Shown in pieces: positions 501 to 46,994 of a DNA stretch of 64,000 nt. The notes under the pieces are model-generated. The model was not told the origin of the DNA. It made no database searches and saw nothing but the letters and a program-made list of their open reading frames with translations. Where the stretch lies: NCBI GenBank assembly GCA_036785705.1, contig JAWUZG010000353.1:868001-932000 (forward strand), read 5' to 3'. Source of the DNA: Acanthornis magna. Its lineage: Eukaryota; Chordata; Aves; Passeriformes; Acanthizidae. How positions within the stretch are numbered: the stretch's first letter is position 1; each line of letters starts with the position of its first letter. The position numbers were made by a program, and so were the translations under genes.

Positions 501-978
501 CTTGCTCTCTTGTGCCAAGTGGGCCAGATTATCAAAGCTGGGCATCTCACTCCTGTTCATGATGGAAATGTAGCAGGTGTTCTGTTGCGTGACTTTGGTT
601 GCAATGACACCCTGTAAAACAGTTATGGACCACTCGCACTTCAGTCTATCAGCCCTTGGGATTGGAGAACACTCTTTGGTAAAACAGAAACAAATGCCCA
701 GAGTTGCTACCCCACATGGTGGACTCAAGATGGTCAGAATAACAAAACCAGCCCTGTCCCCGGGCCAGCTGTACCAGGAGACAGTCTCCTCACACGCTTT
801 GTGAACAAGCGCGCTCCCTGCCACTCACCGTGTTGTAGTTCCAGATGGTTTTCCAGGACCCGCTGCCGGTCTTTTTCTCAATAACTGCCACGCGCCATTG
901 CCAGTTGATGGTCACAATTTGGGACTGGCCACCAATGGTGACTTGTGTGCTGTTGGTGCCGCCGGGAATCTGCTGAGG
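501..978 (-). CDS. BRICHOS cassette 14 (exons 3 and 4 only, cut by window edge)
   Basis: Exon 3 at 829-978 and exon 4 at 501-611, both with good splice sites. Exon 3 has one replacement unique to this copy (STQVTIGG for STQVIIGG). Bases 1-500 match intron 4 of the other units, so the array continues leftwards beyond the window. The true C-terminus and stop are not visible. Confidence 0.78.
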
Positions 979-3900
979 CTGAAAAGCCAAGGGAAAGAAG
1001 ACGTTTCACCTTTGAAGGGCGTCGCTGATGACCCCAAAGCTTCTGAAAAACCCCTGCTACAAGACAAGAAGTGCTGCCCCCCGGCAAGTGCCGGCACTGC
1101 TCTCAGGCTTTTCAAAAGCACCCACAATCAAGGATGTGCCCTTGGGCAGAGCCCTAGGAAGTCTTTTGATGGATTCAATGAATCATTGCTGCATCTGACA
1201 GCTCTCATCTGGTGCCTTTAGAGGCTGATGCGTGCCAGAGGACTGGCCACAGTTAATCCACGCTCTGGGTCTCGGACGGAAAGCTCTGCTCACCCTTCCT
1301 CTCAAAAGAGGACATGCCAGGCAAGAAGGCCATCAGGCCTGCCTTTGGGCAGCACCTCTGGAGCCCCAGCACTTGGCTCAAGAAAGGTAAGGCCTCAGGT
1401 TTTCTCACCTGCTCATTGCCACTGCAGTACTTCAGATCCACAACTCTCAGGACATTGAGGGTAATGCACGATCCCAGGTTCACCTGGGGTCCTTGGAAAG
1501 CAAGAAAAGACAAGACAAAACCCCGTGAGTTAATTCCTATGACCTTGGCTGCCACTCTATAAGAGGGTGGTGGTGGTGGTGTTTCTCAGAGCGAGCCAGG
1601 TTTGAAGAATTGCTGCACTGGGAAGGGTTGAGATGTATGAGGCACAGATTCCCTTGCAGTCCCCAAAGAGCACCGGCTCTGTGGCTCGGCAGGGAATGGC
1701 CACCAAGCCGTGCTCTTGAACAGCCTTTGGGATTTCTCGTGCAGAAATTGGGGCTCTTTTGCACTCGCTCCTCTGAGTCCCCATGGGCATGCATTACACA
1801 GTTAGGCTGGTGTCACTTCATGGGCCCAGTCACATGGGCTCTGATATTCTGGAAGAATCCTAAGAAGGCTAGGTCATTAGCCACCTGTGGAACTTGATCA
1901 TTCCCCCTGGGAAAAACCTACAGGGAAGAAAGCTGCTTGGCCTAGTGTTGTGAAGCACAGGGTTGTGGTCACCACCTCGGTCAATTCATCTGCAAGCTCT
2001 GAGCTAAAGGCCAGCGGTTCTTAGGAAGACCCTTTTTCTTTGCCTGGGCATTGCACAGGAGCTCCATGTGGGCCAAAACACTCTGGGCCCAAACTTAAGC
2101 CTCCGTAAGATTCCCAGAAAGGAGCTGTAAGGCTTTGCATTGGGTCAAATATGGCGGCTGTGACACCAGCCTGTTCCAGTCCTGAGCTGAAGAAATGTCA
2201 AAGCCTTTGTGCCACTGCCGAAGACCTTCGGTTCTGTGCGCCTCAAGGTGGAATAGCAGCAGTCGCGCCTTAGTCATTCCCCAAGGGAAACAAATGTCGG
2301 GTCACTTAGAGACACAGTTCCTTTGCTCAAACTCACCATGAACTTCGTAAGCCATGTAGGTGGTGAATCCACTGCACATTGAGAAGACATCGGCTCCATA
2401 AGACCTGAGGTTGTTGACCAATCCACTGGCGACAAAGGTGATCTTCTTGGTAGGTCTTCCAAGGCCCATCTAAGCATCACACAAGAGCATTCAGCAAGAT
2501 CAGTGCCGTCACCTGTTGCATGCTAGGCATATTCCTGGCCAGCAATGACGACTCGGGGCTTGGGGTTTGACTCCCAACTGCCTCTGGGGACATCTTTTAA
2601 TCCCCTGGGGGCCTGTGGGACCACTAGCGAGCCTTGAAGGCAGCTCCAAAGGCAGATTGTTCTAAGGGAGTCAAGGTGCAGAGAGCCCGAGGGGACGTGG
2701 CACTGCAAGGGAAGCGCTGAAGTGGAGGAGCGCAGCCGCTCTGCTGAGCCAGAGCTCCTTCCAAAACTTTTGCTCAGTCCCTGCCCCCGCCCCTCAGAGG
2801 CACTCGGGCTGTTTGCTGGAAGGCTGGCAGGAGAAGGCTCTTCCTGCAGCCCGTGCTAAACTGCAAACAAAGAGGGCAGCAGTAAGCCTGGGCAGAGACA
2901 TTTGCTCTCAGACTATTTGCGAGTGGTGCTGAAAACCACACAGAGAGCCCTGGGCGCTCTAGTGGGACAGGTCTTTCTGAACGGCTCCAGAGGCCTTTGT
3001 TTCAAATGAATTGCCACTCTCTTTTCCTCCTGCAGTGCTTTCTCACCTGGCCCCAGTCCCTGCATGCCTGGCTTTGCTCCCATGCCCTCGGCTTCCAGCG
3101 CCTCTCTTGCCCTTTCCTCAGCTAGGGCCACAGGCCTCCTGTTGTGGCTCATGCCATCAACCTGGGGGACAGGCTGTGCAATAGGGAAGCGCTCTCTCGC
3201 TCCCCAAGGCAAAACCGAGTCTGGCTAAGCGCGGCTGCAATGCCTGGTTCTGAGCTGACCAGAGCAGTTTGGTACTGAAAGGCCTGCAAAGGACTTTGCG
3301 ATCTTGGCATGCCAAAAGAATGAAGGCCCTTGAAGGGCTCCTCAGAGCAAGGGTTTGTCCAGCAAGCTGCAGAGCTCAACGTCGTCCGAAAGAGCAGAGC
3401 TGAGGGAGGGAATGATTCATCCCCCTTTTCTTTTGGCAAAACATTCCTATGACAAATTCCCAATCTGCAGTACTGCTGAGGGAAAGGACGTCCTGCCACT
3501 TGTGACAACCCCACCCTCTCCAGAAGGTCAAAGCACATTAAGAAAGGGCCCCATGAACTCTAGGGTCAAGACACTGCTGTTCCTTTGCAATCTTACCTTG
3601 CTCTCTTGTGCCAAGTGGGCCAGATTATCAAAGCTGGGCATCTCACTCCTGTTCATGATGGAAATGTAGCAGGTGTTCTGTTGCGTGACTTTGGTTGCAA
3701 TGACGCCCTGTAAAACAGTTATGGACCACTCGCACTTCAGTCTATCAGCCCTTGGGATTGGAGAACACTCTTTGGTAAAACAGAAACAAATGCCCAGAGT
3801 TGCTACCCCACATGGTGGACTCAAGATGGTCAGAATAACAAAACCAGCCCTGTCCCCGGGCCAGCTGTACCGGGAGACAGTCTCCTCACACGCTTTGTGA

Positions 3901-6900
3901 ACAAGCGCGCTCCCTGCCACTCACCGTGTTGTAGTTCCAGATGGTTTTCCAGGACCCGCTGCCGGTCTTTTTCTCAATAACTGCCACGCGCCATTGCCAG
4001 TTGATGGTCACAATTTGGGACTGGCCACCAATGATGACTTGTGTGCTGTTGGTGCCGCCGGGAATCTGCTGAGGCTGAAAAGCCAAGGGAAAGAAGACGT
4101 TTCACCTTTGAAGGGCGTCGCTGATGACCCCAAAGCTTCTGAAAAACCCCTGCTACAAGACAAGAAGTGCTGCCCCCCGGCAAGTGCCGGCACTGCTCTC
4201 AGGCTTTTCAAAAGCACCCACAATCAAGGATGTGCCCTTGGGCAGAGCCCTAGGAAGTCTTTTGATGGATTCAATGAATCATTGCTGCATCTGACAGCTC
4301 TCATCTGGTGCCTTTAGAGGCTGATGCGTGCAAGAGGACTGGCCACAGTTAATCCACGCTCTGGGTCTCGGACGGAAAGCTCTGCTCACCCTTCCTCTCA
4401 AAAGAGGACATGCCAGGCAAGAAGGCCATCAGGCCTGCCTTTGGGCAGCACCTCTGGAGCCCCAGCACTTGGCTCAAGAAAGGTAAGGCCTCAGGTTTTC
4501 TCACCTGCTCATTGCCACTGCAGTACTTCAGATCCACAACTCTCAGGACATTGAGGGTAATGCACGATCCCAGGTTCACCTGGGGTCCTTGGAAAGCAAG
4601 AAAAGACAAGACAAAACCCCGTGAGTTAATTCCTATGACCTTGGCTGCCACTCTATAAGAGGGTGGTGGTGGTGGTGTTTCTCAGAGCGAGCCAGGTTTG
4701 AAGAATTGCTGCACTGGGAAGGGTTGAGATGTATGAGGCACAGATTCCCTTGCAGTCCCCAAAGAGCACCGGCTCTGTGGCTCGGCAGGGAATGGCCACC
4801 AAGCCGTGCTCTTGAACAGCCTTTGGGATTTCTCGTGCAGAAATTGGGGCTCTTTTGCACTCGCTCCTCTGAGTCCCCATGGGCATGCATTACACAGTTA
4901 GGCTGGTGTCACTTCATGGGCCCAGTCACATGGGCTCTGATATTCTGGAAGAATCCTAAGAAGGCTAGGTCATTAGCCACCTGTGGAACTTGATCATTCC
5001 CCCTGGGAAAAACCTACAGGGAAGAAAGCTGCTTGGCCTAGTGTTGTGAAGCACAGGGTTGTGGTCACCACCTCGGTCAATTCATCTGCAAGCTCTGAGC
5101 TAAAGGCCAGCGGTTCTTAGGAAGACCCTTTTTCTTTGCCTGGGCATTGCACAGGAGCTCCATGTGGGCCAAAACACTCTGGGCCCAAACTTAAGCCTCC
5201 GTAAGATTCCCAGAAAGGAGCTGTAAGGCTTTGCATTGGGTCAAATATGGCGGCTGTGACACCAGCCTGTTCCAGTCCTGAGCTGAAGAAATGTCAAAGC
5301 CTTTGTGCCACTGCCGAAGACCTTCGGTTCTGTGCGCCTCAAGGTGGAATAGCAGCAGTCGCGCCTTAGTCATTCCCCAAGGGAAACAAATGTCGGGTCA
5401 CTTAGAGACACAGTTCCTTTGCTCAAACTCACCATGAACTTCGTAAGCCATGTAGGTGGTGAATCCACTGCACATTGAGAAGACATCGGCTCCATAAGAC
5501 CTGAGGTTGTTGACCAATCCACTGGCGACAAAGGTGATCTTCTTGGTAGGTCTTCCAAGGCCCATCTAAGCATCACACAAGAGCATTCAGCAAGATCAGT
5601 GCCGTCACCTGTTGCATGCTAGGCATATTCCTGGCCAGCAATGACGACTCGGGGCTTGGGGTTTGACTCCCAACTGCCTCTGGGGACATCTTTTAATCCC
5701 CTGGGGGCCTGTGGGACCACTAGCGAGCCTTGAAGGCAGCTCCAAAGGCAGATTGTTCTAAGGGAGTCAAGGTGCAGAGAGCCCGAGGGGACGTGGCACT
5801 GCAAGGGAAGCGCTGAAGTGGAGGAGCGCAGCCGCTCTGCTGAGCCAGAGCTCCTTCCAAAACTTTTGCTCAGTCCCTGCCCCCGCCCCTCAGAGGCACT
5901 CGGGCTGTTTGCTGGAAGGCTGGCAGGAGAAGGCTCTTCCTGCAGCCCGTGCTAAACTGCAAACAAAGAGGGCAGCAGTAAGCCTGGGCAGAGACATTTG
6001 CTCTCAGACTATTTGCGAGTGGTGCTGAAAACCACACAGAGAGCCCTGGGCGCTCTAGTGGGACAGGTCTTTCTGAACGGCTCCAGAGGCCTTTGTTTCA
6101 AATGAATTGCCACTCTCTTTTCCTCCTGCAGTGCTTTCTCACCTGGCCCCAGTCCCTGCATGCCTGGCTTTGCTCCCATGCCCTCGGCTTCCAGCGCCTC
6201 TCTTGCCCTTTCCTCAGCTAGGGCCACAGGCCTCCTGTTGTGGCTCATGCCATCAACCTGGGGGACAGGCTGTGCAATAGGGAAGCGCTCTCTCGCTCCC
6301 CAAGGCAAAACCGAGTCTGGCTAAGCGCGGCTGCAATGCCTGGTTCTGAGCTGACCAGAGCAGTTTGGTACTGAAAGGCCTGCAAAGGACTTTGCGATCT
6401 TGGCATGCCAAAAGAATGAAGGCCCTTGAAGGGCTCCTCAGAGCAAGGGTTTGTCCAGCAAGCTGCAGAGCTCAACGTCGTCCGAAAGAGCAGAGCTGAG
6501 GGAGGGAATGATTCATCCCCCTTTTCTTTTGGCAAAACATTCCTATGACAAATTCCCAATCTGCAGTACTGCTGAGGGAAAGGACGTCCTGCCACTTGTG
6601 ACAACCCCACCCTCTCCAGAAGGTCAAAGCACATTAAGAAAGGGCCCCATGAACTCTAGGGTCAAGACACTGCTGTTCCTTTGCAATCTTACCTTGCTCT
6701 CTTGTGCCAAGTGGGCCAGATTATCAAAGCTGGGCATCTCACTCCTGTTCATGATGGAAATGTAGCAGGTGTTCTGTTGCGTGACTTTGGTTGCAATGAC
6801 GCCCTGTAAAACAGTTATGGACCACTCGCACTTCAGTCTATCAGCCCTTGGGATTGGAGAACACTCTTTGGTAAAACAGAAACAAATGCCCAGAGTTGCT

Positions 6901-9900
6901 ACCCCACATGGTGGACTCAAGATGGTCAGAATAACAAAACCAGCCCTGTCCCCGGGCCAGCTGTACCGGGAGACAGTCTCCTCACACGCTTTGTGAACAA
7001 GCGCGCTCCCTGCCACTCACCGTGTTGTAGTTCCAGATGGTTTTCCAGGACCCGCTGCCGGTCTTTTTCTCAATAACTGCCACGCGCCATTGCCAGTTGA
7101 TGGTCACAATTTGGGACTGGCCACCAATGATGACTTGTGTGCTGTTGGTGCCGCCGGGAATCTGCTGAGGCTGAAAAGCCAAGGGAAAGAAGACGTTTCA
7201 CCTTTGAAGGGCGTCGCTGATGACCCCAAAGCTTCTGAAAAACCCCTGCTACAAGACAAGAAGTGCTGCCCCCCGGCAAGTGCCGGCACTGCTCTCAGGC
7301 TTTTCAAAAGCACCCACAATCAAGGATGTGCCCTTGGGCAGAGCCCTAGGAAGTCTTTTGATGGATTCAATGAATCATTGCTGCATCTGACAGCTCTCAT
7401 CTGGTGCCTTTAGAGGCTGATGCGTGCCAGAGGACTGGCCACAGTTAATCCACGCTCTGGGTCTCGGACGGAAAGCTCTGCTCACCCTTCCTCTCAAAAG
7501 AGGACATGCCAGGCAAGAAGGCCATCAGGCCTGCCTTTGGGCAGCACCTCTGGAGCCCCAGCACTTGGCTCAAGAAAGGTAAGGCCTCAGGTTTTCTCAC
7601 CTGCTCATTGCCACTGCAGTACTTCAGATCCACAACTCCCAAGACATTGAGGGTAATGCACGATCCCAGGTTCACCTGGGGTCCTTGGAAAGCAAGAAAA
7701 GACAAGACAAAACCCCGTGAGTTAATTCCTATGACCTTGGCTGCCACTCTATAAGAGGGTGGTGGTGGTGGTGTTTCTCAGAGCGAGCCAGGTTTGAAGA
7801 ATTGCTGCACTGGGAAGGGTTGAGATGTATGAGGCACAGATTCCCTTGCAGTCCCCAAAGAGCACCGGCTCTGTGGCTCGGCAGGGAATGGCCACCAAGC
7901 CGTGCTCTTGAACAGCCTTTGGGATTTCTCGTGCAGAAATTGGGGCTCTTTTGCACTCGCTCCTCTGAGTCCCCATGGGCATGCATTACACAGTTAGGCT
8001 GGTGTCACTTCATGGGCCCAGTCACATGGGCTCTGATATTCTGGAAGAATCCTAAGAAGGGTAGGTCATTAGCCACCTGTGGAACTTGATCATTCCCCCT
8101 GGGAAAAACCTACAGGGAAGAAAGCTGCTTGGCCTAGTGTTGTGAAGCACAGCGTTGTGGTCACCACCTCGGTCAATTCATCTGCAAGCTCTGAGCTAAA
8201 GGCCAGCGGTTCTTAGGAAGACCCTTTTTCTTTGCCTGGGCATTGCACAGGAGCTCCATGTGGGCCAAAACACTCTGGGCCCAAACTTAAGCCTCCGTAA
8301 GATTCCCAGAAAGGAGCTGTAAGGCTTTGCATTGGGTCAAATATGGCGGCTGTGACACCAGCCTGTTCCAGTCCTGAGCTGAAGAAATGTCAAAGCCTTT
8401 GTGCCACTGCCGAAGACCTTCGGTTCTGTGCGCCTCAAGGTGGAACAGCAGCAGTCGCGCCTTAGTCATTCCCCAAGGGAAACAAATGTCGGGTCACTTA
8501 GAGACACAGTTCCTTTGCTCGAACTCACCATGAACTTCGTAAGCCATGTAGGTGGTGAATCCACTGCACATTGAGAAGACATCGGCTCCATAAGACCTGA
8601 GGTTGTTGACCAATCCACTGGCGACAAAGGTGATCTTCTTGGTAGGTCTTCCAAGGCCCATCTAAGCATCACACAAGAGCATTCAGCAAGATCAGTGCCG
8701 TCACCTGTTGCATGCTAGGCATATTCCTGGCCAGCAATGACGACTCGGGGCTTGGGGTTTGACTCCCAACTGCCTCTGGGGACATCTTTTAATCCCCTGG
8801 GGGCCTGTGGGACCACTAGCGAGCCTTGAAGGCAGCTCCAAAGGCAGATTGTTCTAAGGGAGTCAAGGTGCAGAGAGCCCGAGGGGACGTGGCACTGCAA
8901 GGGAAGCGCTGAAGTGGAGGAGCGCAGCCGCTCTGCTGAGCCAGAGCTCCTTCCAAAACTTTTGCTCAGTCCCTGCCCCCGCCCCTCAGAGGCACACAGG
9001 CTGTCGGCTGGAAGGCTGTCAGGAGAAGGCTCTTCCTGCAGCCCGTGCTAAACTGCAAACAAAGAGGGCAGCAGTAAGCCTGGGCAGAGACATTTGCTCT
9101 CAGACTATTTGCGAGTGGTGCTGAAAACCACACAGAGAGCCCTGGGCGCTCTAGTGGGACAGGTCTTTCTGAACGGCTCCAGAGGCCTTTGTTTCAAATG
9201 AATTGCCACTCTCTTTTCCTCCTGCAGTGCTTTCTCACCTGGCCCCAGTCCCTGCATGCCTGGCTTTGCTCCCATGCCCTCGGCTTCCAGCGCCTCTCTT
9301 GCCCTTTCCTCAGCTAGGGCCACAGGCCTCCTGTTGTGGCTCATGCCATCAACCTGGGGGACAGGCTGTGCAATAGGGAAGCGCTCTCTCGCTCCCCAAG
9401 GCAAAACCGAGTCTGGCTAAGCGCGGCTGCAATGCCTGGTTCTGAGCTGACCAGAGCAGTTTGGTACTGAAAGGCCTGCAAAGGACTTTGCGATCTTGGC
9501 ATGCCAAAAGAATGAAGGCCCTTGAAGGGCTCCTCAGAGCAAGGGTTTGTCCAGCAAGCTGCAGAGCTCAACGTCGTCCGAAAGAGCAGAGCTGAGGGAG
9601 GGAATGATTCATCCCCCTTTTCTTTTGGCAAAACATTCCTATGACAAATTCCCAATCTGCAGTACTGCTGAGGGAAAGGACGTCCTGCCACTTGTGACAA
9701 CCCCACCCTCTCCAGAAGGTCAAAGCACATTAAGAAAGGGCCCCATGAACTCTAGGGTCAAGACACTGCTGTTCCTTTGCAATCTTACCTTGCTCTCTTG
9801 TGCCAAGTGGGCCAGATTATCAAAGCTGGGCATCTCACTCCTGTTCATGATGGAAATGTAGCAGGTGTTCTGTTGCGTGACTTTGGTTGCAATGACGCCC

Positions 9901-30900: not shown

Positions 30901-33900
30901 TGCAGTGCTTTCTCACCTGGCCCCAGTCCCTGCATGCCTGGCTTTGCTCCCATGCCCTCGGCTTCCAGCGCCTCTCTTGCCCTTTCCTCAGCTAGGGCCA
31001 CAGGCCTCCTGTTGTGGCTCATGCCATCAACCTGGGGGACAGGCTGTGCAATAGGGAAGCGCTCTCTCGCTCCCCAAGGCAAAACCGAGTCTGGCTAAGC
31101 GCGGCTGCAATGCCTGGTTCTGAGCTGACCAGAGCAGTTTGGTACTGAAAGGCCTGCAAAGGACTTTGCGATCTTGGCATGCCAAAAGAATGAAGGCCCT
31201 TGAAGGGCTCCTCAGAGCAAGGGTTTGTCCAGCAAGCTGCAGAGCTCAACGTCGTCCGAAAGAGCAGAGCTGAGGGAGGGAATGATTCATCCCCCTTTTC
31301 TTTTGGCAAAACATTCCTATGACAAATTCCCAATCTGCAGTACTGCTGAGGGAAAGGACGTCCTGCCACTTGTGACAACCCCACCCTCTCCAGAAGGTCA
31401 AAGCACATTAAGAAAGGGCCCCATGAACTCTAGGGTCAAGACACTGCTGTTCCTTTGCAATCTTACCTTGCTCTCTTGTGCCAAGTGGGCCAGATTATCA
31501 AAGCTGGGCATCTCACTCCTGTTCATGATGGAAATGTAGCAGGTGTTCTGTTGCGTGACTTTGGTTGCAATGACGCCCTGTAAAACAGAGTTATGGACCA
31601 CTCGCACTTCAGTCTATCAGCCCTTGGGATTGGAGAACACTCTTTGGTAAAACAGACACAAATGCCCAGAGTTGCTACCCCACATGGTGGACTCAAGATG
31701 GTCAGAATAACAAAACCAGCCCTGTCCCCGGGCCAGCTGTACCGGGAGACAGCCTCCTCACACGCTTTGTGAACAAGCGCGCTCCCTGCCACTCACCGTG
31801 TTGTAGTTCCAGATGGTTTTCCAGGACCCGCTGCCGGTCTTTTTCTCAATAACTGCCACGCGCCATTGCCAGTTGATGGTCACAATTTGGGACTGGCCAC
31901 CAATGATGACTTGTGTGCTGTTGGTGCCGCCGGGAATCTGCTGAGGCTGAAAAGCCAAGGGAAAGAAGACGTTTCACCTTTGAAGGGCGTCGCTGATGAC
32001 CCCAAAGCTTCTGAAAAACCCCTGCTACAAGAGAAGAAGTGCTGCCCCCCGGCAAGTGCCGGCACTGCTCTCAGGCTTTTCAAAAGCACCCACAATCAAG
32101 GATGTGCCCTTGGGCAGAGCCCTAGGAAGTCTTTTGATGGATTCAATGAATCATTGCTGCATCTGACAGCTCTCATCTGGTGCCTTTAGAGGCTGATGCG
32201 TGCAAGAGGACTGGCCACAGTTAATCCACGCTCTGGGTCTCGGACGGAAAGCTCTGCTCACCCTTCCTCTCAAAAGAGGACATGCCAGGCAAGAAGGCCA
32301 TCAGGCCTGCCTTTGGGCAGCACCTCTGGAGCCCCAGCACTTGGCTCAAGAAAGGTAAGGCCTCAGGTTTTCTCACCTGCTCATTGCCACTGCAGTACTT
32401 CAGATCCACAACTCCCAAGACATTGAGGGTAATGCACGATCCCAGGTTCACCTGGGGTCCTTGGAAAGCAAGAAAAGACAAGACAAAACCCCATGAGTTA
32501 ATTCCTATGACCTTGGCTGCCACTCTATAAGAGGGTGGTGGTGGTGGTGTTTCTCAGAGCGAGCCAGGTTTGAAGAATTGCTGCACTGGGAAGGGTTGAG
32601 ATGTATGAGGCACAGATTCCCTTGCAGTCCCCAAAGAGCACCGGCTCTGTGGCTCTCCCCATTAAGCCGTGCTCTTGAACAGCCTTTGGGATTTCTCGTG
32701 CAGAAATTGGGGCTCTATTCCACTCGCTCCCCTGAGACCCTATGGGCATGCATTACACAGTTAGGCCAATGTCACTTCATGTGCCCAAGTCACATGGGCT
32801 GTGACATCCTGGATGGATCCTAAGAAGTGTAGGTTCTTAGCCACCTGTGGAACTTGATCATTCCCCCTGGGAAAAACCTACAGGGGAGAAAGCTGCTTAG
32901 CTTGGTGTTTTGAAGAACAAAGTATAGGTTGCTGCTTTGGTCAACTCGCTAGCTAGCTCTGAGCTGAATGACAATTGTTCTTAGGAAGACCCTTTTTCTT
33001 TGCCTGGGCATTGCACAGGAGCTCCATGTGGGCCAAAACACTCTGGGCCCAAACTTAAGCTTCCTTAAGATTCCCAATTCCCAGAAAGGAGTTTTAAGGG
33101 TTTGGATCGGCTCACACATGGCAGCTGGACACCAGCCTGTTCCAGTCCTGAGCTGAAGAAATGTCAAAGCCTTTGTGCCACTGCCGAAGACCTTCGGTTC
33201 TGTGCGCCTCAAGGTGGAACAGCAGCAGTCGCGCCTTAGTCATTCCCCAAGGGAAACAAATGTCGGGTCACTTAGAGACACAGTTCCTTTGCTCAAACTC
33301 ACCATGAACTTCGTAAGCCATGTAGGTGGTGAATCCACTGCACATTGAGAAGACATCGGCTCCATAAGACCTGAGGTTGTTGACCAATCCACTGGCGACA
33401 AAGGTGATCTTCTTGGTAGGTCTTCCAAGGCCCATCTAAGCATCACACAAGAGCATTCAGCAAGATCAGTGCCGTCACCTGTTGCATGCTAGGCATATTC
33501 CTGGCCAGCAATGACGACTCGGGGCTTGGGGTTTGACTCCCAACTGCCTCTGGGGACATCTTTTAATCCCCTGGGGGCCTGTGGGACCACTAGCGAGCCT
33601 TGAAGGCAGCTCCAAAGGCAGATTGTTCTAAGGGAGTCAAGGTGCAGAGAGCCCGAGGGGACGTGGCACTGCAAGGGAAGCGCTGAAGTGGAGGAGCGCA
33701 GCCGCTCTGCTGAGCCAGAGCTCCTTCCAAAACTTTTGCTCAGTCCCTGCCCCCGCCCCTCAGAGGCACTCGGGCTGTTTGCTGGAAGGCTGGCAGGAGA
33801 AGGCTCTTCCTGCAGCCCGTGCTAAACTGCAAACAAAGAGGGCAGCAGTAAGCCTGGGCAGAGACATTTGCTCTCAGACTATTTGCGAGTGGTGCTGAAA

Positions 33901-36900
33901 ACCACACAGAGAGCCCTGGGCGCTCTAGTGGGACAGGTCTTTCTGAACGGCTCCAGAGGCCTTTGTTTCCAATGAATTGCCACTCTCTTTTCCTCCTGCA
34001 GTGCTTTCTCACCTGGCCCCAGTCCCTGCATGCCTGGCTTTGCTCCCATGCCCTCGGCTTCCAGCGCCTCTCTTGCCCTTTCCTCAGCTAGGGCCACAGG
34101 CCTCCTGTTGTGGCTCATGCCATCAACCTGGGGGACAGGCTGTGCAATAGGGAAGCGCTCTCTCGCTCCCCAAGGCAAAACCGAGTCTGGCTAAGCGCGG
34201 CTGCAATGCCTGGTTCTGAGCTGACCAGAGCAGTTTGGTACTGAAAGGTCTGCAAAGGACTTTGCGATCTTGGCATGCCAAAAGAATGAAGGCCCTTGAA
34301 GGGCTCCTCAGAGCAAGGGTTTGTCCAGCAAGCTGCAGAGCTCAACGTCGTCCGAAAGAGCAGAGCTGAGGGAGGGAATGATTCATCCCCCTTTTCTTTT
34401 GGCAAAACATTCCTATGACAAATTCCCAATCTGCAGTACTGCTGAGGGAAAGGACGTCCTGCCACTTGTGACAACCCCACCCTCTCCAGAAGGTCAAAGC
34501 ACATTAAGAAAGGGCCCCATGAACTCTAGGGTCAAGACACTGCTGTTCCTTTGCAATCTTACCTTGCTCTCTTGTGCCAAGTGGGCCAGATTATCAAAGC
34601 TGGGCATCTCACTCCTGTTCATGATGGAAATGTAGCAGGTGTTCTGTTGCGTGACTTTGGTTGCAATGACGCCCTGTAAAACAGAGTTATGGACCACTCG
34701 CACTTCAGTCTATCAGCCCTTGGGATTGGAGAACACTCTTTGGTAAAACAGAAACAAATGCCCAGAGTTGCTACCCCACATGGTGGACTCAAGATGGTCA
34801 GAATAACAAAACCAGCCCTGTCCCCGGGCCAGCTGTACCGGGAGACAGTCTCCTCACACGCTTTGTGAACAAGCGCGCTCCCTGCCACTCACCGTGTTGT
34901 AGTTCCAGATGGTTTTCCAGGACCCGCTGCCGGTCTTTTTCTCAATAACTGCCACGCGCCATTGCCAGTTGATGGTCACAATTTGGGACTGGCCACCAAT
35001 GATGACTTGTGTGCTGTTGGTGCCGCCGGGAATCTGCTGAGGCTGAAAAGCCAAGGGAAAGAAGACGTTTCACCTTTGAAGGGCGTCGCTGATGACCCCA
35101 AAGCTTCTGAAAAACCCCTGCTACAAGACAAGAAGTGCTGCCCCCCGGCAAGTGCCGGCACTGCTCTCAGGCTTTTCAAAAGCACCCACAATCAAGGATG
35201 TGCCCTTGGGCAGAGCCCTAGGAAGTCTTTTGATGGATTCAATGAATCATTGCTGCATCTGACAGCTCTCATCTGGTGCCTTTAGAGGCTGATGCGTGCA
35301 AGAGGACTGGCCACAGTTAATCCACGCTCTGGGTCTCGGACGGAAAGCTCTGCTCACCCTTCCTCTCAAAAGAGGACATGCCAGGCAAGAAGGCCATCAG
35401 GCCTGCCTTTGGGCAGCACCTCTGGAGCCCCAGCACTTGGCTCAAGAAAGGTAAGGCCTCAGGTTTTCTCACCTGCTCATTGCCACTGCAGTACTTCAGA
35501 TCCACAACTCCCAAGACATTGAGGGTAATGCACGATCCCAGGTTCACCTGGGGTCCTTGGAAAGCAAGAAAAGACAAGACAAAACCCCATGAGTTAATTC
35601 CTATGACCTTGGCTGCCACTCTATAAGAGGGTGGTGGTGGTGGTGTTTCTCAGAGCGAGCCAGGTTTGAAGAATTGCTGCACTGGGAAGGGTTGAGATGT
35701 ATGAGGCACAGATTCCCTTGCAGTCCCCAAAGAGCACCGGCTCTGTGGCTCGGCAGGGAATGGCCACCAAGCCGTGCTCTTGAACAGCCTTTGGGATTTC
35801 TCGTGCAGAAATTGGGGCTCTTTTGCACTCGCTCCTCTGAGTCCCCATGGGCATGCATTACACAGTTAGGCTGGTGTCACTTCATGGGCCCAGTCACATG
35901 GGCTCTGATATTCTGGAAGAATCCTAAGAAGGGTAGGTCAGTAGCCACCTGTGGAACTTGATCATTCCCCCTGGGAAAAACCTACAGGGAAGAAAGCTGC
36001 TTGGCCTAGTGTTGTGAAGCACAGCGTTGTGGTCACCACCTCGGTCAATTCATCTGCAAGCTCTGAGCTAAAGGCCAGCGGTTCTTAGGAAGACCCTTTT
36101 TCTTTGCCTGGGCATTGCACAGGAGCTCCATGTGGGCCAAAACACTCTGGGCCCAAACTTAAGCCTCCGTAAGATTCCCAGAAAGGAGCTGTAAGGCTTT
36201 GCATCGGGTCAAATATGGCGGCTGTGACACCAGCCTGTTCCAGTCCTGAGCTGAAGAAATGTCAAAGCCTTTGTGCCACTGCCGAAGACCTTCGGTTCTG
36301 TGCGCCTCAAGGTGGAACAGCAGCAGTCGCGCCTTAGTCATTCCCCAAGGGAAACAAATGTCGGGTCACTTAGAGACACAGTTCCTTTGCTCGAACTCAC
36401 CATGAGCTTCGTAAGCCATGTAGGTGGTGAATCCACTGCACATTGAGAAGACATCGGCTCCATAAGACCTGAGGTTGTTGACCAATCCACTGGCGACAAA
36501 GGTGATCTTCTTGGTAGGTCTTCCAAGGCCCATCTAAGCATCACACAAGAGCATTCAGCAAGATCAGTGCCGTCACCTGTTGCATGCTAGGCATATTCCT
36601 GGCCAGCAATGACGACTCGGGGCTTGGGGTTTGACTCCCAACTGCCTCTGGGGACATCTTTTAATCCCCTGGGGGCCTGTGGGACCACTAGTGAGCCTTG
36701 AAGGCAGCTCCAAAGGCAGATTGTTCTAAGGGAGTCAAGGTGCAGAGAGCCCGAGGGGACGTGGCACTGCAAGGGAAGCGCTGAAGTGGAGGAGCGCAGC
36801 CGCTCTGCTGAGCCAGAGCTCCTTCCAAAACTTTTGCTCAGTCCCTGCCCCCGCCCCTCAGAGGCACTCGGGCTGTTTGCTGGAAGGCTGGCAGGAGAAG

Positions 36901-39900
36901 GCTCTTCCTGCAGCCCGTGCTAAACTGCAAACAAAGAGGGCAGCAGTAAGCCTGGGCAGAGACATTTGCTCTCAGACTATTTGCGAGTGGTGCTGAAAAC
37001 CACACAGAGAGCCCTGGGCGCTCTAGTGGGACAGGTCTTTCTGAACGGCTCCAGAGGCCTTTGTTTCAAATGAATTGCCACTCTCTTTTCCTCCTGCAGT
37101 GCTTTCTCACCTGGCCCCAGTCCCTGCATGCCTGGCTTTGCTCCCATGCCCTCGGCTTCCAGCGCCTCTCTTGCCCTTTCCTCAGCTAGGGCCACAGGCC
37201 TCCTGTTGTGGCTCATGCCATCAACCTGGGGGACAGGCTGTGCAATAGGGAAGCGCTCTCTCGCTCCCCAAGGCAAAACCGAGTCTGGCTAAGCGCGGCT
37301 GCAATGCCTGGTTCTGAGCTGACCAGAGCAGTTTGGTACTGAAAGGCCTGCAAAGGACTTTGCGATCTTGGCATGCCAAAAGAATGAAGGCCCTTGAAGG
37401 GCTCCTCAGAGCAAGGGTTTGTCCAGCAAGCTGCAGAGCTCAACGTCGTCCGAAAGAGCAGAGCTGAGGGAGGGAATGATTCATCCCCCTTTTCTTTTGG
37501 CAAAACATTCCTATGACAAATTCCCAATCTGCAGTACTGCTGAGGGAAAGGACGTCCTGCCACTTGTGACAACCCCACCCTCTCCAGAAGGTCAAAGCAC
37601 ATTAAGAAAGGGCCCCATGAACTCTAGGGTCAAGACACTGCTGTTCCTTTGCAATCTTACCTTGCTCTCTTGTGCCAAGTGGGCCAGATTATCAAAGCTG
37701 GGCATCTCACTCCTGTTCATGATGGAAATGTAGCAGGTGTTCTGTTGCGTGACTTTGGTTGCAATGACGCCCTGTAAAACAGAGTTATGGACCACTCGCA
37801 CTTCAGTCTATCAGCCCTTGGGACTGGAGAACACTCTTTGGTAAAACAGAAACAAATGCCCAGAGTTGCTACCCCACATGGTGGACTCAAGGTGGTCAGA
37901 ATAACAAAACCAGCCCTGTCCCCGGGCCAGCTGTACCGGGAGACAGTCTCCTCACACGCTTTGTGAACAAGCGCGCTCCCTGCCACTCACCGTGTTGTAG
38001 TTCCAGATGGTTTTCCAGGACCCGCTGCCGGTCTTTTTCTCAATAACTGCCACGCGCCATTGCCAGTTGATGGTCACAATTTGGGACTGGCCACCAATGA
38101 TGACTTGTGTGCTGTTGGTGCCGCCGGGAATCTGCTGAGGCTGAAAAGCCAAGGGAAAGAAGACGTTTCACCTTTGAAGGGCGTCGCTGATGACCCCAAA
38201 GCTTCTGAAAAACCCCTGCTACAAGAGAAGAAGTGCTGCCCCCCGGCAAGTGCCGGCACTGCTCTCAGGCTTTTCAAAAGCACCCACAATCAAGGATGTG
38301 CCCTTGGGCAGAGCCCTAGGAAGTCTTTTGATGGATTCAATGAATCATTGCTGCATCTGACAGCTCTCATCTGGTGCCTTTAGAGGCTGATGCGTGCAAG
38401 AGGACTGGCCACAGTTAATCCACGCTCTGGGTCTCGGACGGAAAGCTCTGCTCACCCTTCCTCTCAAAAGAGGACATGCCAGGCAAGAAGGCCATCAGGG
38501 CTGCCTTTGGCCAGCACCTCTGGAGCCCCAGCACTTGGCTCAAGAAAGGTAAGGCCTCAGGTTTTCTCACCTGCTCATTGCCACTGCAGTACTTCAGATC
38601 CACAACTCCCAAGACATTGAGGGTAATGCACGATCCCAGGCTCACCTGGGGTCCTTGGAAAGCAAGAAAAGACAAGACAAAACCCCATGAGTTAATTCCT
38701 ATGACCTTGGCTGCCACTCTATAAGAGGGTGGTGGTGGTGGTGTTTCTCAGAGCGAGCCAGGTTTGAAGAATTGCTGCACTGGGAAGGGTTGAGATGTAT
38801 GAGGCACAGATTCCCTTGCAGTCCCCAAAGAGCACTGGCTCTGTGGCTCGCCCCATCAAGCCGTGCTCTTGAACAGCCTTTGGAATTTCTCGTGCAGAAA
38901 TTGGGGCTCTATTCCACTCGCTCCCCTGAGACCCTATGGGCATGCATTACACAGTTAGGCCAATGTCACTTCATGTGCCCAAGTCACATGGGCTGTGACA
39001 TCCTGGATGGATCCTAAGAAGTGTAGGTTCTTAGCCACCTGTGGAACTTGATCATTCCCCCTGGGAAAAACCTACAGGGAAGAAAGCTGCTTAGCTTGGT
39101 GTTTTGAAGAACAAAGTATAGGTTGCTGCTTTGGTCAACTCGCTAGCTAGCTCTGAGCTGAATGACAATTGTTCTTAGGATGACCCTTTTTCTTTGCCTG
39201 GGCATTGGACAGGAGCTCCATGTGGGCCAAAACACTCTGGGCCCAAACTTAAGCTTCCTTAAGATTCCCAATTCCCAGAAAGGAGTTTTAAGGGTTTGGA
39301 TCGGCTCACACATGGCAGCTGGACACCAGCCTGTTCCAGTCCTGAGCTGAAGAAATGTCAAAGCCTTTGTGCCACTGCCGAAGACCTTCGGTTCTGTGCG
39401 CCTCAAGGTGGAACAGCAGCAGTCGCGCCTTAGTCATTCCCCAAGGGAAACAAATGTCGGGTCACTTAGAGACACAGTTCCTTTGCTCGAACTCACCATG
39501 AACTTCGTAAGCCATGTAGGTGGTGAATCCACTGCACATTGAGAAGACATCGGCCCCATAAGACCTGAGGTTGTTGACCAATCCACTGGCGACAAAGGTG
39601 ATCTTCTTGGTAGGTCTTCCAAGGCCCATCTGGTTCTAAGCATCACACAACAGCATTCAGCAAGATCAGTGTGGCCCCAACGCCAGGTTCAGAGCTGACC
39701 AAAGCAGTTTGGTACTGACAGGTCTTCGAATGACTTTGAGACCTTGGCATGCCAAAAGAATGAAGGCCCTTGAAGGCCTCCTCAGTGCAAGGGTTTGTCC
39801 AGCAAGCTGCAGAGCTCAACGTCCTCCAAGAAAGCAGTACTGAGAGTGGGGGGGATGAAGCATCCCCTTTTTTCTTTTGGCAAAGCATTCCTACAACAAA

Positions 39901-42457
39901 CTCCTAATCTGTAGTATTGTTGAGATAAAGAAAATTCTGCCGCTCATGGCAAACTTGTCCTCTCCAGAAAGGAAAAGCACAGTTAACAAATGGCCCTATG
40001 AACTGCTGTGTAAACTTTGGCTTGGCAGGAATGGCATCAATTGTTACCCATTCTTTACATTATACCGGACTTTGTTGATAGGGTTTCTTAAAGCCCACTG
40101 CACTGTTCTTCCTGCTTATTGGGCAGCACTGTGTTTCGATTCGTTTCCAGGGGCTCAGAGATGCACCTTAGGAATAGCATGCCTGGAATTATAGCTAAGG
40201 CTGTTTATTGTTTCTTTTGCCTTTAGCAGGGACACTCTCCTGATTTTTTTCTGCCCTACAGGTCTTCCTGCTTTTTAAAGTCTGGATTTTTTTAAGGACT
40301 CATTTCTCTGATTTCAAGTGAAGCCGCTGTCTACCAAAGGTGAATGCGCTGAATGCTGAGAGCGTTTTATAATGTCTGTCCTAATTTGGTGGCCTGAACT
40401 GAAGGAACATAGTGCAGAGTTCTGTTCAAAAAGTTTGAAAACTTTCTTTTTTTTCTTTAATACTGAAATTTTCTTTTCCCTTGTTAGATTTTCTGCAGAA
40501 AAATTAGTTTTTTAGACTTTGAGGATGAGAGATTCTGAAATGTACTAACAAAAAAAATCTAAACTCCTAAGATACTAAGACAGTAAGAAAACCAGTCAAT
40601 TATATAATAATTTAAAGCATTGTAATAATAATCTAACCACTCTTGGGCTTTGACTCAACATGATGAAGCTGCACTAAAGGCACCTGAATGAGGATATTGT
40701 AACTTTTGAAAGTTTTCAATTGATGTACCTGAAAAATATCACCAAAATAACACCAATAAAACATTTTTTTATTTACCCAGTGGTTAAGAAGGCTTGAAAA
40801 ATAGCTGTGTCTCCCTTAAAAAAATTAGTACCAAATACAGTACAATGTTCAAAGCAATTGCTTATTTTGAATCTTACCCTGTTCTGTGAAGCCATTTGGG
40901 CCAGATTTTCAAAGCTGGGCATCTGATTTTTTTTCATGGCAGAAATGTAGCAAGTTCTCTCTTGTATCACTTTGGTTGCAATGATGCCCTATAAGAAAAA
41001 GTTATTGACCACTTGCAATTCAGTTTTTCAACCCCGGGGACTGGAAAACACTCTTTGGTAAAACAGACACAAATGCCCAGAGTTGCTACCCCACATGGTG
41101 GACTCAAGATGGTCAGAATAACAAAACCAGCCCTGTCCCCGGGCCAGCTGTACCAGGAGACAGTCTCCTCACATGCTTTGTGAACAAGCATGCTCCCTGC
41201 CACTCACCGTGTTGTAGTTCCAGATGGTTTTCCAGGACAAATCGTCACTAATTTGCTCCATAATCACCACACGTGTTTGACTACTGAAAGTCATATTTTG
41301 GAAAACACCACCAACAGAGACCTGGCAGTTGTCATTGGGCTGCTGAGGCTAAAAAGCCAAGGGAAAGGAGATGTTTAGTCTTTGAAGGAAGTCAGTGATA
41401 TTCCCAAAATTTTAGAAAAATCCCTGCCACAGTAGAAGTGCTGCTCTCTTCTAAGTGCCATCACAATTCGGGATTGGACACTAGTGATAGGGACCTTGGT
41501 AATTACTCCAAGGATGACTTGCTGGTTTTCAATATTTTGCTGAGACTCAATAACAAAATGAGGCATTTGTCCATTTTCAAACTAATCAGTGATCTCATAA
41601 AATTTTTATTAACATCCTTGCTAGACTAGAGTAAGTTCTACCCCACAGTGAATGCCAGAGTTTCATCTATGTGAGAAGATTTCAATTTGTTTCCTCCAAA
41701 GGGGTGGTGAAAGAATCAAGGAGATCTCATGAATGGGGGGATCATAGAAAGAGCAGCCATTCATTCATGTGGAAATTGTTCACTGTACTCACGTAATCAG
41801 CAAGGGTTGGAGTCAGGACAAGTCCAAGAAGGACTGCAGTCAAAATCTGAAATGGAAATCAAATACAAAAGTGTTAACTGCAGCTCTGGCTGACAAATGT
41901 GGTCATGAGAATCCTCCTTCACTTTTCCTAATCTGATCTTTAACGGTCCTCCTTGGATCCTTTTTTGCTTTCATCCTGGGATTGCAACAGTGCCCTAAAA
42001 GGGAGCCACCCTTGCTTTACCCCAGCGTGCTGCAAAGAAGACACATTTCACACTTGCTCTTTCAAGAGCTGAATCTGGAGTTGTTTCTCAGACTTGCGCA
42101 GGCACACACAGGTATTTTACAAGAGTGAGCAGAATTTCTTCTGCTCTGGCATTACAGGGAAGGGGTTGATCCACTAGTGCAGTGCACCAGTTGTGCAAAA
42201 GCATTGACAAAAATGGACATGGAGTAGGCTTCCTGTTTTCTGAATAATGTACAGCCAAGCCATGAAAAAATCCTTACCTTGTCAGCTCATTTGGGTAATA
42301 ATGGTTGAGTTGCTTGTTCTGGAGGAGCAAAATGTCCCCAGAGAAAGCCTTTGTGCTCTAGAAAGGCAGAAGCACTTCTGGGGGATAAAGGAATGGGTTT
42401 GAATCAAAGTTTCAGTTCATAAGGAAGAAAAGCATGCATACTCACAGGGAGATTCAT
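501..42457 (-). CDS. Poly-BRICHOS gastrokine-like gene (partial, 3' end off window)
   Basis: Predicted secreted protein made of tandem gastrokine-type BRICHOS domains. Seen: exon 1 (MNLP), a hydrophobic signal exon, then 13 complete cassettes and one partial cassette of four exons each. Every exon has AG/GT borders, and each cassette is phase 0 at both ends, so the frame stays open from the ATG at 42,457 to 501 (6,525 coding bp, 2,175 codons). Each cassette carries a W-rich linker, a first BRICHOS Cys (NTCYISIM), a second (FSMCSGFTTY) and a C-terminal Cys pair (GSC...KYC), matching gastrokine order. Known of the family: gastrokines are secreted by gastric surface epithelium and BRICHOS acts as an anti-aggregation chaperone. 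Inferred: all cassettes are joined in one mRNA, because only the 5' end has a promoter and signal exon and no polyadenylation signal or stop lies between cassettes. The alternative, separate genes per cassette, would lack start and secretion signals. No cDNA evidence. Confidence 0.8.
979..1408 (-). other. Fusion intron joining one cassette to the next (example)
   Basis: 430 bp between exon 6 of cassette 13 and exon 3 of cassette 14; the same interval recurs 13 times. The part next to exon 3 (979 to about 1,080) resembles intron 2 of the founder gene beside cassette 1 (41,351-41,450). The part next to exon 6 (about 1,290-1,408) resembles the end of the terminal exon and 3' UTR of the right-hand gene (about 61,600-61,706). 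I see no ATTAAA or AATAAA signal, TATA box or signal exon inside it. Confidence 0.65.
1409..4074 (-). CDS. BRICHOS cassette 13
   Basis: Exons 3-6 at 3,925-4,074, 3,597-3,707, 2,337-2,469 and 1,409-1,491. Exon 6 is the R variant and ends SGNEQ, then donor GTGAGAAAACC. Last complete cassette in the window. Its intron sizes are typical: 217, 1,127, 845 and 430 bp (the last joins to cassette 14). Confidence 0.78.
1492..2336 (-). other. Intron 5, type A (example)
   Basis: The common form of the exon 5-6 intron (845 bp), found in cassettes 2 and 6-13. It differs from type B (843 bp; example 26,268-27,110) over about 26,460-26,930, where type B has for example CTCTCCCCATTAAGCC in place of CTCGGCAGGGAATGGCC. 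Both types keep the donor GTGAGTTTGAG or GTGAGTTCGAG and the acceptor TTTCCAAG. Confidence 0.7.
2506..3237. other. GC-rich intron 4 segment of about 730 bp, absent from cassette 1
   Basis: Present in intron 4 of cassettes 2-13, in the left-edge copy and in the right-hand gene (about 62,501-63,235), but missing from cassette 1, where flanking sequence joins at about 39,670-39,680. It contains a run CCCTGCCCCCGCCCCTC and a 99-codon minus-strand reading frame (2,913-3,212) open in every copy. That frame resembles nothing I know and is not bounded by splice signals in the right frame. No terminal repeats or target-site duplication were evident, so its origin is unknown. Confidence 0.6.
4505..7170 (-). 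CDS. BRICHOS cassette 12
   Basis: Exons 3-6 at 7,021-7,170, 6,693-6,803, 5,433-5,565 and 4,505-4,587. Exon 6 is the R variant. Very similar to cassette 13 in exons and introns; intron 3 lacks the 2-bp insertion. Confidence 0.78.
7601..10268 (-). CDS. BRICHOS cassette 11
   Basis: Exons 3-6 at 10,119-10,268, 9,789-9,899, 8,529-8,661 and 7,601-7,683. Exon 6 is the G variant. Intron 4 holds the variant GGCACACAGGCTGTCGGC, shared with cassette 9 and partly with cassette 7. Confidence 0.78.
10699..13364 (-). CDS. BRICHOS cassette 10
   Basis: Exons 3-6 at 13,215-13,364, 12,887-12,997, 11,627-11,759 and 10,699-10,781. Exon 6 is the G variant. Intron 3 lacks the 2-bp insertion. Intron 5 carries GAGCTCTAAGG, shared only with cassette 8. 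Confidence 0.78.
13795..16462 (-). CDS. BRICHOS cassette 9
   Basis: Exons 3-6 at 16,313-16,462, 15,983-16,093, 14,723-14,855 and 13,795-13,877. Exon 6 is the G variant; exon 5 has one synonymous change (TCC for TCT serine). Intron variants match those of cassette 11. Confidence 0.78.
16893..19558 (-). CDS. BRICHOS cassette 8
   Basis: Exons 3-6 at 19,409-19,558, 19,081-19,191, 17,821-17,953 and 16,893-16,975. Exon 6 is the G variant. Its intron variants (for example GAGCTCTAAGG in intron 5) repeat those of cassette 10, two units away, as expected of a two-unit duplication. Confidence 0.78.
19989..22656 (-). CDS. BRICHOS cassette 7
   Basis: Exons 3-6 at 22,507-22,656, 22,177-22,287, 20,917-21,049 and 19,989-20,071. 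Exon 6 is the R variant. Intron 3 has the 2-bp AG insertion next to the exon 4 acceptor, which makes this spacing 3,098 bp. Exon peptides follow the consensus. Confidence 0.78.
23087..25754 (-). CDS. BRICHOS cassette 6
   Basis: Exons 3-6 at 25,605-25,754, 25,275-25,385, 24,015-24,147 and 23,087-23,169. Exon 6 is the R variant (LNVLRVVDLKYC). The exon 5-6 intron is type A, while intron 3 has the cassette 4/5 variant, so the unit is a mosaic. Confidence 0.78.
26185..28850 (-). CDS. BRICHOS cassette 5
   Basis: Exons 3-6 at 28,701-28,850, 28,371-28,481, 27,111-27,243 and 26,185-26,267. It is nearly identical to cassette 4, introns included (type B intron 5, AAAACAGACAC in intron 3), so these two look like a recent single-unit duplication of 3,096 bp. 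Confidence 0.78.
29281..31946 (-). CDS. BRICHOS cassette 4
   Basis: Exons 3-6 at 31,797-31,946, 31,467-31,577, 30,207-30,339 and 29,281-29,363. Exon 6 is the G variant (LGVVDLKYC) and the exon 5-6 intron is type B. Intron 3 carries the variant AAAACAGACAC, also found in cassette 1, instead of AAAACAGAAAC. Confidence 0.78.
32377..35042 (-). CDS. BRICHOS cassette 3
   Basis: Exons 3-6 at 34,893-35,042, 34,563-34,673, 33,303-33,435 and 32,377-32,459. The protein matches the cassette consensus, with LGVVDLKYC in exon 6. The exon 5-6 intron is the rarer type B, shared with cassettes 1, 4 and 5. Confidence 0.78.
35473..38140 (-). CDS. BRICHOS cassette 2
   Basis: Exons 3-6 at 37,991-38,140, 37,661-37,771, 36,401-36,533 and 35,473-35,555. 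It is the first of the homogenised cassettes: exon 3 begins PQQIPGGTNSTQV (an N-S-T glycosylation sequon) and exon 4 GVIATKVTQQNTCYISIM. Exon 5 has one replacement near its end (YEAH for YEVH). Exon 6 reads LNVLGVVDLKYC. The exon 5-6 intron is the common type A. Confidence 0.78.
38571..41348 (-). CDS. BRICHOS cassette 1 (diverged founder copy)
   Basis: Exons: 3 at 41,208-41,348 (47 codons), 4 at 40,878-40,988, 5 at 39,497-39,635 (139 bp), 6 at 38,571-38,653. Exon 3 begins PQQPNDNCQVSVGG, which differs from the other cassettes and adds a Cys, but ends with the shared SWKTIWNYNT. Exon 4 reads GIIATKVIQERTCYISAM and then diverges. Exon 5 begins NQMGLGRP, two residues more than in later cassettes. 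Exon 6 has SLGSCITLN instead of NLGSCITLN. The intron between exons 4 and 5 is AT-rich and mostly unlike the array. The 3' half, from exon 5 on, is almost identical to other cassettes. It is the only cassette preceded by signal-peptide exons, so it is probably closest to the ancestral gene. Confidence 0.8.
39636..40877 (-). other. Unhomogenised intron 4 of cassette 1
   Basis: AT-rich intron of 1,242 bp. About 39,675-40,010 still resembles array intron 4. About 40,010-40,870 has no counterpart in cassettes 2-13 but resembles the intron of the right-hand gene (63,540 to the edge), so it is ancestral sequence deleted from the array unit. Confidence 0.6.
41793..41846 (-). CDS. Exon 2 of the poly-BRICHOS gene (signal peptide)
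   Basis: Acceptor CATTTCAG, 18 codons reading ILTAVLLGLVLTPTLADY, then donor GTGAGTACAG; phase 0 at both ends. With exon 1 it forms a classic secretory signal (hydrophobic core, cleavage probably after LTPTLA). The hydrophobic run and the closing A-D/N-Y resemble the gastrokine-1 signal exon. It occurs once in the array, upstream of cassette 1 only, a main reason for treating all cassettes as one gene. Confidence 0.8.
42446..42457 (-). CDS. Exon 1 of the poly-BRICHOS gene (start codon, MNLP)
   Basis: ATG AAT CTC CCT is followed directly by the donor GTGAGTATG. A tiny first coding exon of four residues, ending in phase 0, is the usual gastrokine arrangement, with the rest of the signal peptide in exon 2. 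The start is fixed by the TATA box upstream and by the in-frame join to the hydrophobic exon at 41,793-41,846. Confidence 0.75.
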
Positions 42458-42512
42458 CCTGACTGCAGAGCTGATGCTCCTGCAGGTAGAAAGAGCAATG
42501 TGAACCTCCCAC

Positions 42513-42520
42513 CTTTTATA
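42513..42520 (-). promoter_or_regulatory. TATA box of the poly-BRICHOS gene
   Basis: TATAAAAG on the minus strand, about 56 bp upstream of the ATG at 42,457. Transcription would start near 42,485-42,490, leaving a 5' UTR of about 30 nt. A second TATA box sits at the same distance from the related first exon at 51,348-51,359. I found no TATA box next to any internal cassette. Confidence 0.7.
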
Positions 42521-46851: not shown

Positions 46852-46994
46852 TCAGGAGCTGCGTAAGCGAGGTAGGAGGGAATTCCTCTGCATAGAGCTT
46901 GGATGCATTTTCCAAATGGGCTCATGCTTTAGAGTCTGTTCCTTGAGATAATGAAGTGATTCTCTCTGGGTGGCAATTGGTAAAGCCCGGGTCC
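46852..46994 (-). pseudogene. Relic gastrokine exon 5
   Basis: The end CTCGCTTACGCAGCTCCTGA before GTGAGT aligns with array exon 5 (ATGGCTTACGAAGTTCATG before GTGAGT), and the alignment extends upstream through TTCCCTCCTAC / TTCACCACCTAC. In the homologous frame the BRICHOS Cys codon is lost and a TGA interrupts the exon. Acceptor GATGCTCAG is kept. Confidence 0.6.

Follow-up and report, generated by a model that had tools for sequence, protein, structure and literature searches.

Twin tandem arrays of gastrokine-type BRICHOS units in a passerine genome form two predicted giant genes

Organization of the locus

The window analyzed here is a stretch of 64,000 nucleotides from the genome of Acanthornis magna, positions 868001-932000 of a contig that we call C353. 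Its minus strand carries a gene, designated gene A, in which a four-exon cassette encoding one BRICHOS unit is repeated in tandem. An earlier note on this DNA had reported such a tandem-BRICHOS gene; the observation is confirmed, and it understated what is present. The parts of gene A are as follows, in window coordinates unless C353 is given.

42505-42520 (C353:910505-910520), minus strand: TATA-box promoter motif TATAAAAGGTGGGAGG, one of three occurrences across the 174 kb examined
42446-42457, minus strand: exon 1, with the start codon, encoding MNLP
41793-41846, minus strand: exon 2, encoding the remainder of the signal peptide (ILTAVLLGLVLTPTLADY)
38571-41348, minus strand: cassette 1, exons A-D, with divergent A and B exons
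1409-38140, minus strand: cassettes 2-13, near-identical, 477 nt of coding sequence each
501-978, minus strand: cassette 14, exons A and B
C353:857088-867373, minus strand, outside the window: the remaining two exons of cassette 14 (C and D), followed by cassettes 15-17

Re-derivation of the exons reproduced the previously given extent, 501-42457, exactly. The at least 13 tandem cassettes claimed at that time correspond to 13 full cassettes and half of a 14th within the window, and the gene model extends the array to 17; the repeat spacing, given as ≈3.1 kb, measures 3,096 or 3,098 bp. The coding part inside the window comprises 56 exons and 6,525 nt, and the frame is open, as had been stated, through all 2,175 codons without a stop. 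In cassettes 2-13 the four exons measure 150, 111, 133, and 83 nt, and the exon phases of gene A are A0, B0, C1, and D0. The uniform cassette length of 477 bp that had also been proposed holds for cassettes 2-13 but not for cassette 1: the coding sum is 477 nt in 12 of the 13 full cassettes and 474 nt in the first, whose A and B exons match the query units at 46% and 58% protein identity, respectively.

Adding the flanks (C353:838001-868000 and 932001-1012000) yielded three minus-strand gene models over 174 kb. Gene A spans C353:857088-910457, with 70 exons, 17 units (the exact number being uncertain), and 2,726 residues; its terminal exon ends HGSIKA-stop, followed by AATAAA 149 bases after the stop. 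Upstream of it lies gene B (C353:929707-986664; 74 exons, 18 units, 3,324 residues), and downstream gene C (C353:847516-850539; six exons, one unit, 182 residues). ATTAAA follows the stop after 133 bases in gene B and 162 bases in gene C. The GKN1 gene has the same six-exon layout as gene C, and chicken GKN1 resembles gene C in its signal exons, its BRICHOS domain, and its C-terminal part. The following parts of gene B fall within the window.

61707-61813, minus strand: terminal exon of gene B, with stop
62329-62467, minus strand: exon C of the last unit of gene B, whose body extends to C353:986664

The promoter motif, exon 1, and exon 2 each occur exactly three times in the 174 kb, once per gene, in keeping with the single TATA box, start codon, and signal exon that the earlier note had placed at the 5′ end. 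From ≈500 bases upstream through exon 2, the 5′ ends of the three genes are 88-90% identical. For the models we picked exon ends that give good GT/AG sites in phase, and part of the clean GT-AG record is therefore a product of construction; the weak acceptor of gene B's last A exon was placed by hand, and the acceptor position of the C exon is uncertain by six bases in some units. When the 1.48-Gb assembly was searched with a BRICHOS profile, 34 of the 36 matches fell on C353; the same search of 14 control genomes returned none.

Sequence and predicted structure of the units

Two units were compared with Pfam, one internal and the first of the array. The internal unit matches BRICHOS (PF04089) with E = 2e-20 and 73.2 bits (cut-off 25) across the full profile (1-91 of 91), covering unit residues 38-126, and the first unit matches with E = 2.5e-19. 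Internal units carry cysteine residues in QNTCYIS and FSMCSGF, which we take to be the conserved BRICHOS pair. The conserved aspartate is replaced by asparagine (WKT-I/V-WNY) in all 35 units of the two arrays, and likewise in gene C; because asparagine is a documented variant of the GKN1 family, the absence of Asp does not exclude membership in BRICHOS. Searched by sequence, the PDB gave no match, and the prokaryote library NCBIfam gave none either.

For the structure we turned to a one-unit relative, P0004, whose AlphaFold model has a mean pLDDT of 75.6, with values of 86-96 in 11 of the 13 blocks that make up residues 51-180. All of the Foldseek ranks 1-7 for this model are BRICHOS structures, with 2YAD (proSP-C) appearing five times at probabilities of 0.93-1.00 and 8RNU (0.60) and 8OVI (0.41) once each. 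The best match is 2YAD, with a probability of 0.99-1.00, a target TM of 0.63-0.67, and an E of 0.02; the rmsd to 2YAD is 7.0-9.8 Å, and none of the 365 matches reaches E 0.001. A BRICHOS fold is thereby predicted for the unit type from the model of the relative P0004. A five-unit model of P0060 proved unusable (mean pLDDT 38.3, pTM 0.25).

Internal units are nearly uniform within each array, being 98.7-100% identical in gene A (mean 99.5) and 98.9-100% in gene B (mean 99.9), and the end units are set apart from them: the best identity to an internal unit of the same gene is 74% for the first and 65% for the last unit of gene A, and 85% and 61% for those of gene B. Without the 21-residue signal peptide, the predicted products would have masses of 297 kDa (pI 9.1) for gene A and 365 kDa (pI 9.4) for gene B. 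Whole protein A contains 32 N-glycosylation sequons and 71 cysteines, and whole protein B 69 sequons and 72 cysteines. The internal exon D of gene B is enlarged by repeats of NGNWTG-like N-glycosylation sequons.

Across 12 comparisons among units of genes A, B, and C, dN/dS ranges from 0.39 to 0.74. Rough Fisher tests on four of them, which assume 24% synonymous sites, gave p = 0.03 for the internal pair A6-B6 (dN 0.107, dS 0.231), p = 0.01 for A6-C, p = 0.27 for A17-B18, and p = 0.87 for A1-A17. These values are compatible with weak to moderate constraint on the units, though as evidence of selection they are weak.

One gene or many products

We favor, at a probability of roughly 80%, the reading that the array is a single gene whose transcript would be spliced through all units, and the gene-level structure that the earlier note had proposed is supported by the sequence model. 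Separate promoters and signal exons for individual cassettes were sought over the 174 kb. Because the promoter motif and both signal exons are present in three copies only, one set per gene, the cassettes are by their sequence not separate genes, and we rejected that arrangement.

It is unlikely, in our estimate, that transcripts of a real array mostly end early or skip units, yielding gastrokines of one or a few units. Possible poly(A) signals do lie in the introns of most units: in gene A, the B-C introns contain ATTAAA in 16 of 17 cases and AATAAA in 2 of 17, and in gene B, AATAAA is found in 17 of 18 C-D introns (C353:933870-983417, about every 3.1 kb). AATAAA is also present in the intron that precedes the first A exon of gene A. 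Skipping would be permitted by the phase-0 unit ends, and predicted models elsewhere have 2 to 12 units. Against mostly truncated products, a terminal exon with a stop is found in the last unit of each array only, and AATAAA and ATTAAA are absent from the D-A introns of both arrays (0 of 33). An early end would thus fall either in a B-C intron, where it cuts the BRICHOS domain, or in a C-D intron, where only the exon D tail is lost. Read-through of an unspliced D exon would add 51-53 codons in gene A and 4 in gene B; with the intronic signals, these extra codons make shorter isoforms possible beside the spliced-through transcript that we prefer.

Inflation of a shorter array by the assembler is highly improbable. 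Over their 3.1 kb, units 2-13 agree at 97.4-99.97%, as such an error might produce, but 118 of the 3,106 columns of their alignment vary, with 1 to 98 differences per pair, and they vary in an ordered pattern. A divergent block in the C-D intron is common to units 3-5, and a set of variants found in units 7, 9, and 11 is absent from units 8, 10, and 12, as if a two-unit block had been multiplied. Such variable columns in an ordered pattern argue against an assembler having pasted one unit repeatedly; they look like the outcome of unequal exchange within a living array. An artefact is also disfavored by the presence, on a single 1.6-Mb contig, of two different arrays whose end units diverge, and by similar models in 17 other species. 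Equally remote is a nonfunctional amplification giving no protein product, which could draw on dN/dS values that are not low and on decayed gastrokine copies in the same cluster but is at odds with the lack of any stop in 2,726 + 3,324 codons, with usable splice sites in both arrays, and with the serial units in predicted proteins of the 17 other species.

Relatives and published precedent

A single internal unit, used as a query, retrieved 39 proteins, including one from the tropicbird Phaethon; 37 are bird-named, mostly gastrokine-1-like, and two are without a name. The nearest named proteins to the gene A unit are gastrokine-1-like. With the first seven cassettes as the query, scoring covered the 7,991 candidates that had the most words in common with it, and 23 proteins matched. 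Among them are 21 multi-unit models labeled "uncharacterized" (P0040-P0060), from 17 other species, with 683-1,963 residues, 5-12 units, and 58-79% identity to the query. They share with gene A the same unit, its serial order, and the asparagine but differ in having fewer units and, in 14 of 21 models, no recognizable signal peptide at the start; Aphelocoma P0044 begins with a nearly identical one. All 17 species are passerine by name, a placement verified for Pithys and Catharus and presumed for the remaining 15. We take Pithys, Pipra, and Manacus to be suboscines and the other multi-unit species to be oscines.

A profile built from seven multi-unit models found 30 proteins, one of which has a non-passerine name (gull, P0075, two units). 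We rejected P0075 as a multi-unit gastrokine: its units are unlike each other and the second has Asp (VWDVE), for which reason it looks like two neighboring gastrokines that gene prediction has merged. A word-based search reaches only relatives that share exact words, and absence outside passerines does not follow from it. Asparagine occupies the conserved aspartate position wherever the motif was matched, and in P0053, outside the motif match, it was seen by eye. We discarded the idea that this substitution is a consequence of multiplication, as asparagine is invariant in the 23 single-unit records aligned (of 39) and in gene C. Two further matches of the seven-cassette query, P0061 and P0062, are labeled anthrax toxin receptor 1 and have 2-3 units fused on; these gastrokine-ANTXR1 fusions are probably annotation errors in this cluster.

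The earlier note had doubted whether a poly-BRICHOS gastrokine was on record. The class is already published: Chen et al. (2022; PMC9627735), in a survey of predicted proteins in SMART, describe precursors of the GKN1 family in which there are as many as nineteen BRICHOS domains. The parts of that survey consulted give asparagine in 68% of multi-domain units, with the non-Asp units all in the GKN1 family, and its precursors resemble genes A and B in their serial BRICHOS domains, each with a β-prone tail, and in the non-Asp residue. Several units stand in one frame here too, 17 and 18 by the gene models. Unit identity within one precursor is 48-97% in the survey versus 98.7-100% for the internal units of gene A. 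By comparison with a gastrokine of the GKN1 type, defined by a signal peptide, one BRICHOS domain, and a short Cys tail, gene C fits, whereas gene A has 17 domains and gene B 18 in place of the one domain of the ≈20-kDa GKN1 (PMC2588339, as far as consulted).

The novelty is moderate because the class has already been published. What the present analysis adds is the anatomy of a full gene, a pair of giant genes, and the likely stop-to-donor origin; gene anatomy and twin loci are absent from the parts of PMC9627735 drawn on here, and its main text contains no instance of "bird," "songbird," or "passer." Our literature search, whose coverage lay outside most subscription journals, found no report on poly-gastrokines in birds, and a study of songbird gene gains (PMC4377847) does not mention gastrokine, GKN, or ANTXR1. 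For a class of proteins so far known from predicted sequences, the locus supplies the structure of a complete gene.

Origin of the arrays

The boundary of exon D suggests how such an array may have begun. In internal units it reads CAG|GTGAGA, a good splice donor, in 33 of 33 cases, and the aligned spot in the terminal exons reads GCC-TGA (gene A), GTC-TTA (gene B), and GTG-TGA (gene C). If the last exon of the ancestor had its end near GTG-TGA, like that of gene C, a single change of TGA to AGA would have removed the stop and created the GTGAGA donor. A tandem duplication running from the intron before exon A to a point past exon D would then have joined D to the next A, and growth by whole domains could have followed with the frame kept, since all unit boundaries are phase 0 and any number of units keeps the frame. 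Unequal exchange would keep the internal units alike and leave the end units different. From gene A, a pre-mRNA of ≈53 kb, spliced through, would give a secreted protein of ≈297 kDa before glycosylation. We regard this stop-to-donor origin and order of events, inferred from the sequence, as likely. It offers a simple, testable route from a small secreted protein to a giant repeat protein, in which the terminal exon gains a donor and cassettes multiply in frame.

In a tree of 183 units, the internal units form a species-exclusive clade in 9 of the 18 genes listed (genes A and B of the window, Aphelocoma, Pithys A and B, Anomalospiza, Vidua A, Catharus, and Motacilla) and mix with those of other species in the other 9. 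This count leaves out genes with fewer than three internal units (Vidua B and C, Pipra, Manacus, and gene C), partial units, the second Haemorhous isoform, and P0061 and later. Concerted evolution, as judged from these sequences, is partly borne out.

Possible function

What such a protein might do can be approached through its single-unit relative in chicken. GKN1 makes up 20-25% of gene counts in the gizzard, ≈1,000 times the jejunum level, and its level varies considerably between birds (PMC6293548, as far as consulted). In the parts of PMC2588339 consulted, GKN1 purified from gizzard has a trypsin-resistant core of 18 kDa and is sensitive to trypsin at its N terminus, and the protein is also placed in smooth muscle. 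We tentatively propose, by analogy, that the products of genes A and B may be bulk glycosylated, basic, disulfide-bonded proteins of the stomach surface, acting as a multivalent, protease-resistant protective layer or scaffold, plausibly as part of the lining of the gizzard. The predicted chain, which is basic, sequon-rich, and Cys-containing, would suit a layer that is tough, multivalent, and protective. The stomach role is extrapolated from single-unit chicken GKN1 and is the least certain part of our account.

A broader proposal, which we consider doubtful, is that in passerines a stomach gastrokine turned through one stop-to-donor change, and then in-frame growth by tandem cassettes, into giants of variable length that would be a main structural material of the gizzard lining (koilin), with repeat number tracking diet. 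Our literature search on koilin found no account of its protein make-up, and the parts of PMC11470792 consulted give its occurrence only. Poly-BRICHOS genes are easily missed in work on diet and digestion because they are labeled "uncharacterized" in the databases searched.

We think it quite improbable that the main site of action of the protein is the oviduct and eggshell, as for chicken ovocalyxin-21, or another place outside the stomach. Ovocalyxin-21 is an abundant eggshell protein for which the consulted parts of PMC4666066 use both gastrokine-1 and gastrokine-2 and those of PMC3999959 gastrokine 2. The former source did not find it in the eggshell of the zebra finch, despite a similar sequence in the database, and its absence from that shell weakens the eggshell reading relative to the stomach role proposed above.

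In the BRICHOS domains of proSP-C and Bri2, an Asp-to-Asn change gave a more compact form with better blocking of fibrils and less protection from toxicity (PMC9627735, parts consulted), and a 2023 review (PMC10182729, likewise) states that the functions of multi-BRICHOS precursors are unknown. The arrays raise the question of why birds chain a chaperone-like domain without its conserved Asp.

The surrounding cluster

Besides the three array-type genes, the cluster contains gastrokine exons of canonical type and an ANTXR1-like exon.

Window 46857-47353, minus strand: decayed canonical-type gastrokine exons with an in-frame stop and a frame change, part of the repeated module
C353:851801-852851: decayed canonical-type gastrokine exons beside an array-type gene
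C353:988629-990824: canonical-type gastrokine exons; two matched exons are open, and the final matched stretch contains a stop
C353:840480-840575: ANTXR1-like exon

The remnant at window 46857-47353 is a neighbor and lies outside the poly-BRICHOS gene. The copy at C353:988629-990824 has Asp in the motif (TIWDF). Intergenic blocks are common to all three modules at 82.7-98.5% identity, and a canonical-type gastrokine lies beside each array-type gene; together these sequence similarities suggest that a two-gene module was copied to three places. Gastrokine genes typically adjoin ANTXR1. An Rfam search of the window gave no match. Upstream of the gene A promoter, at about 43000-44000 of the window, there is a short tandem run of CTCTG, and retrotransposon-like remnants in the same interval look to us like CR1. 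Past the cluster, a gastrokine-like exon (GYIATRLF...) lies on the plus strand at C353:999402-999512.
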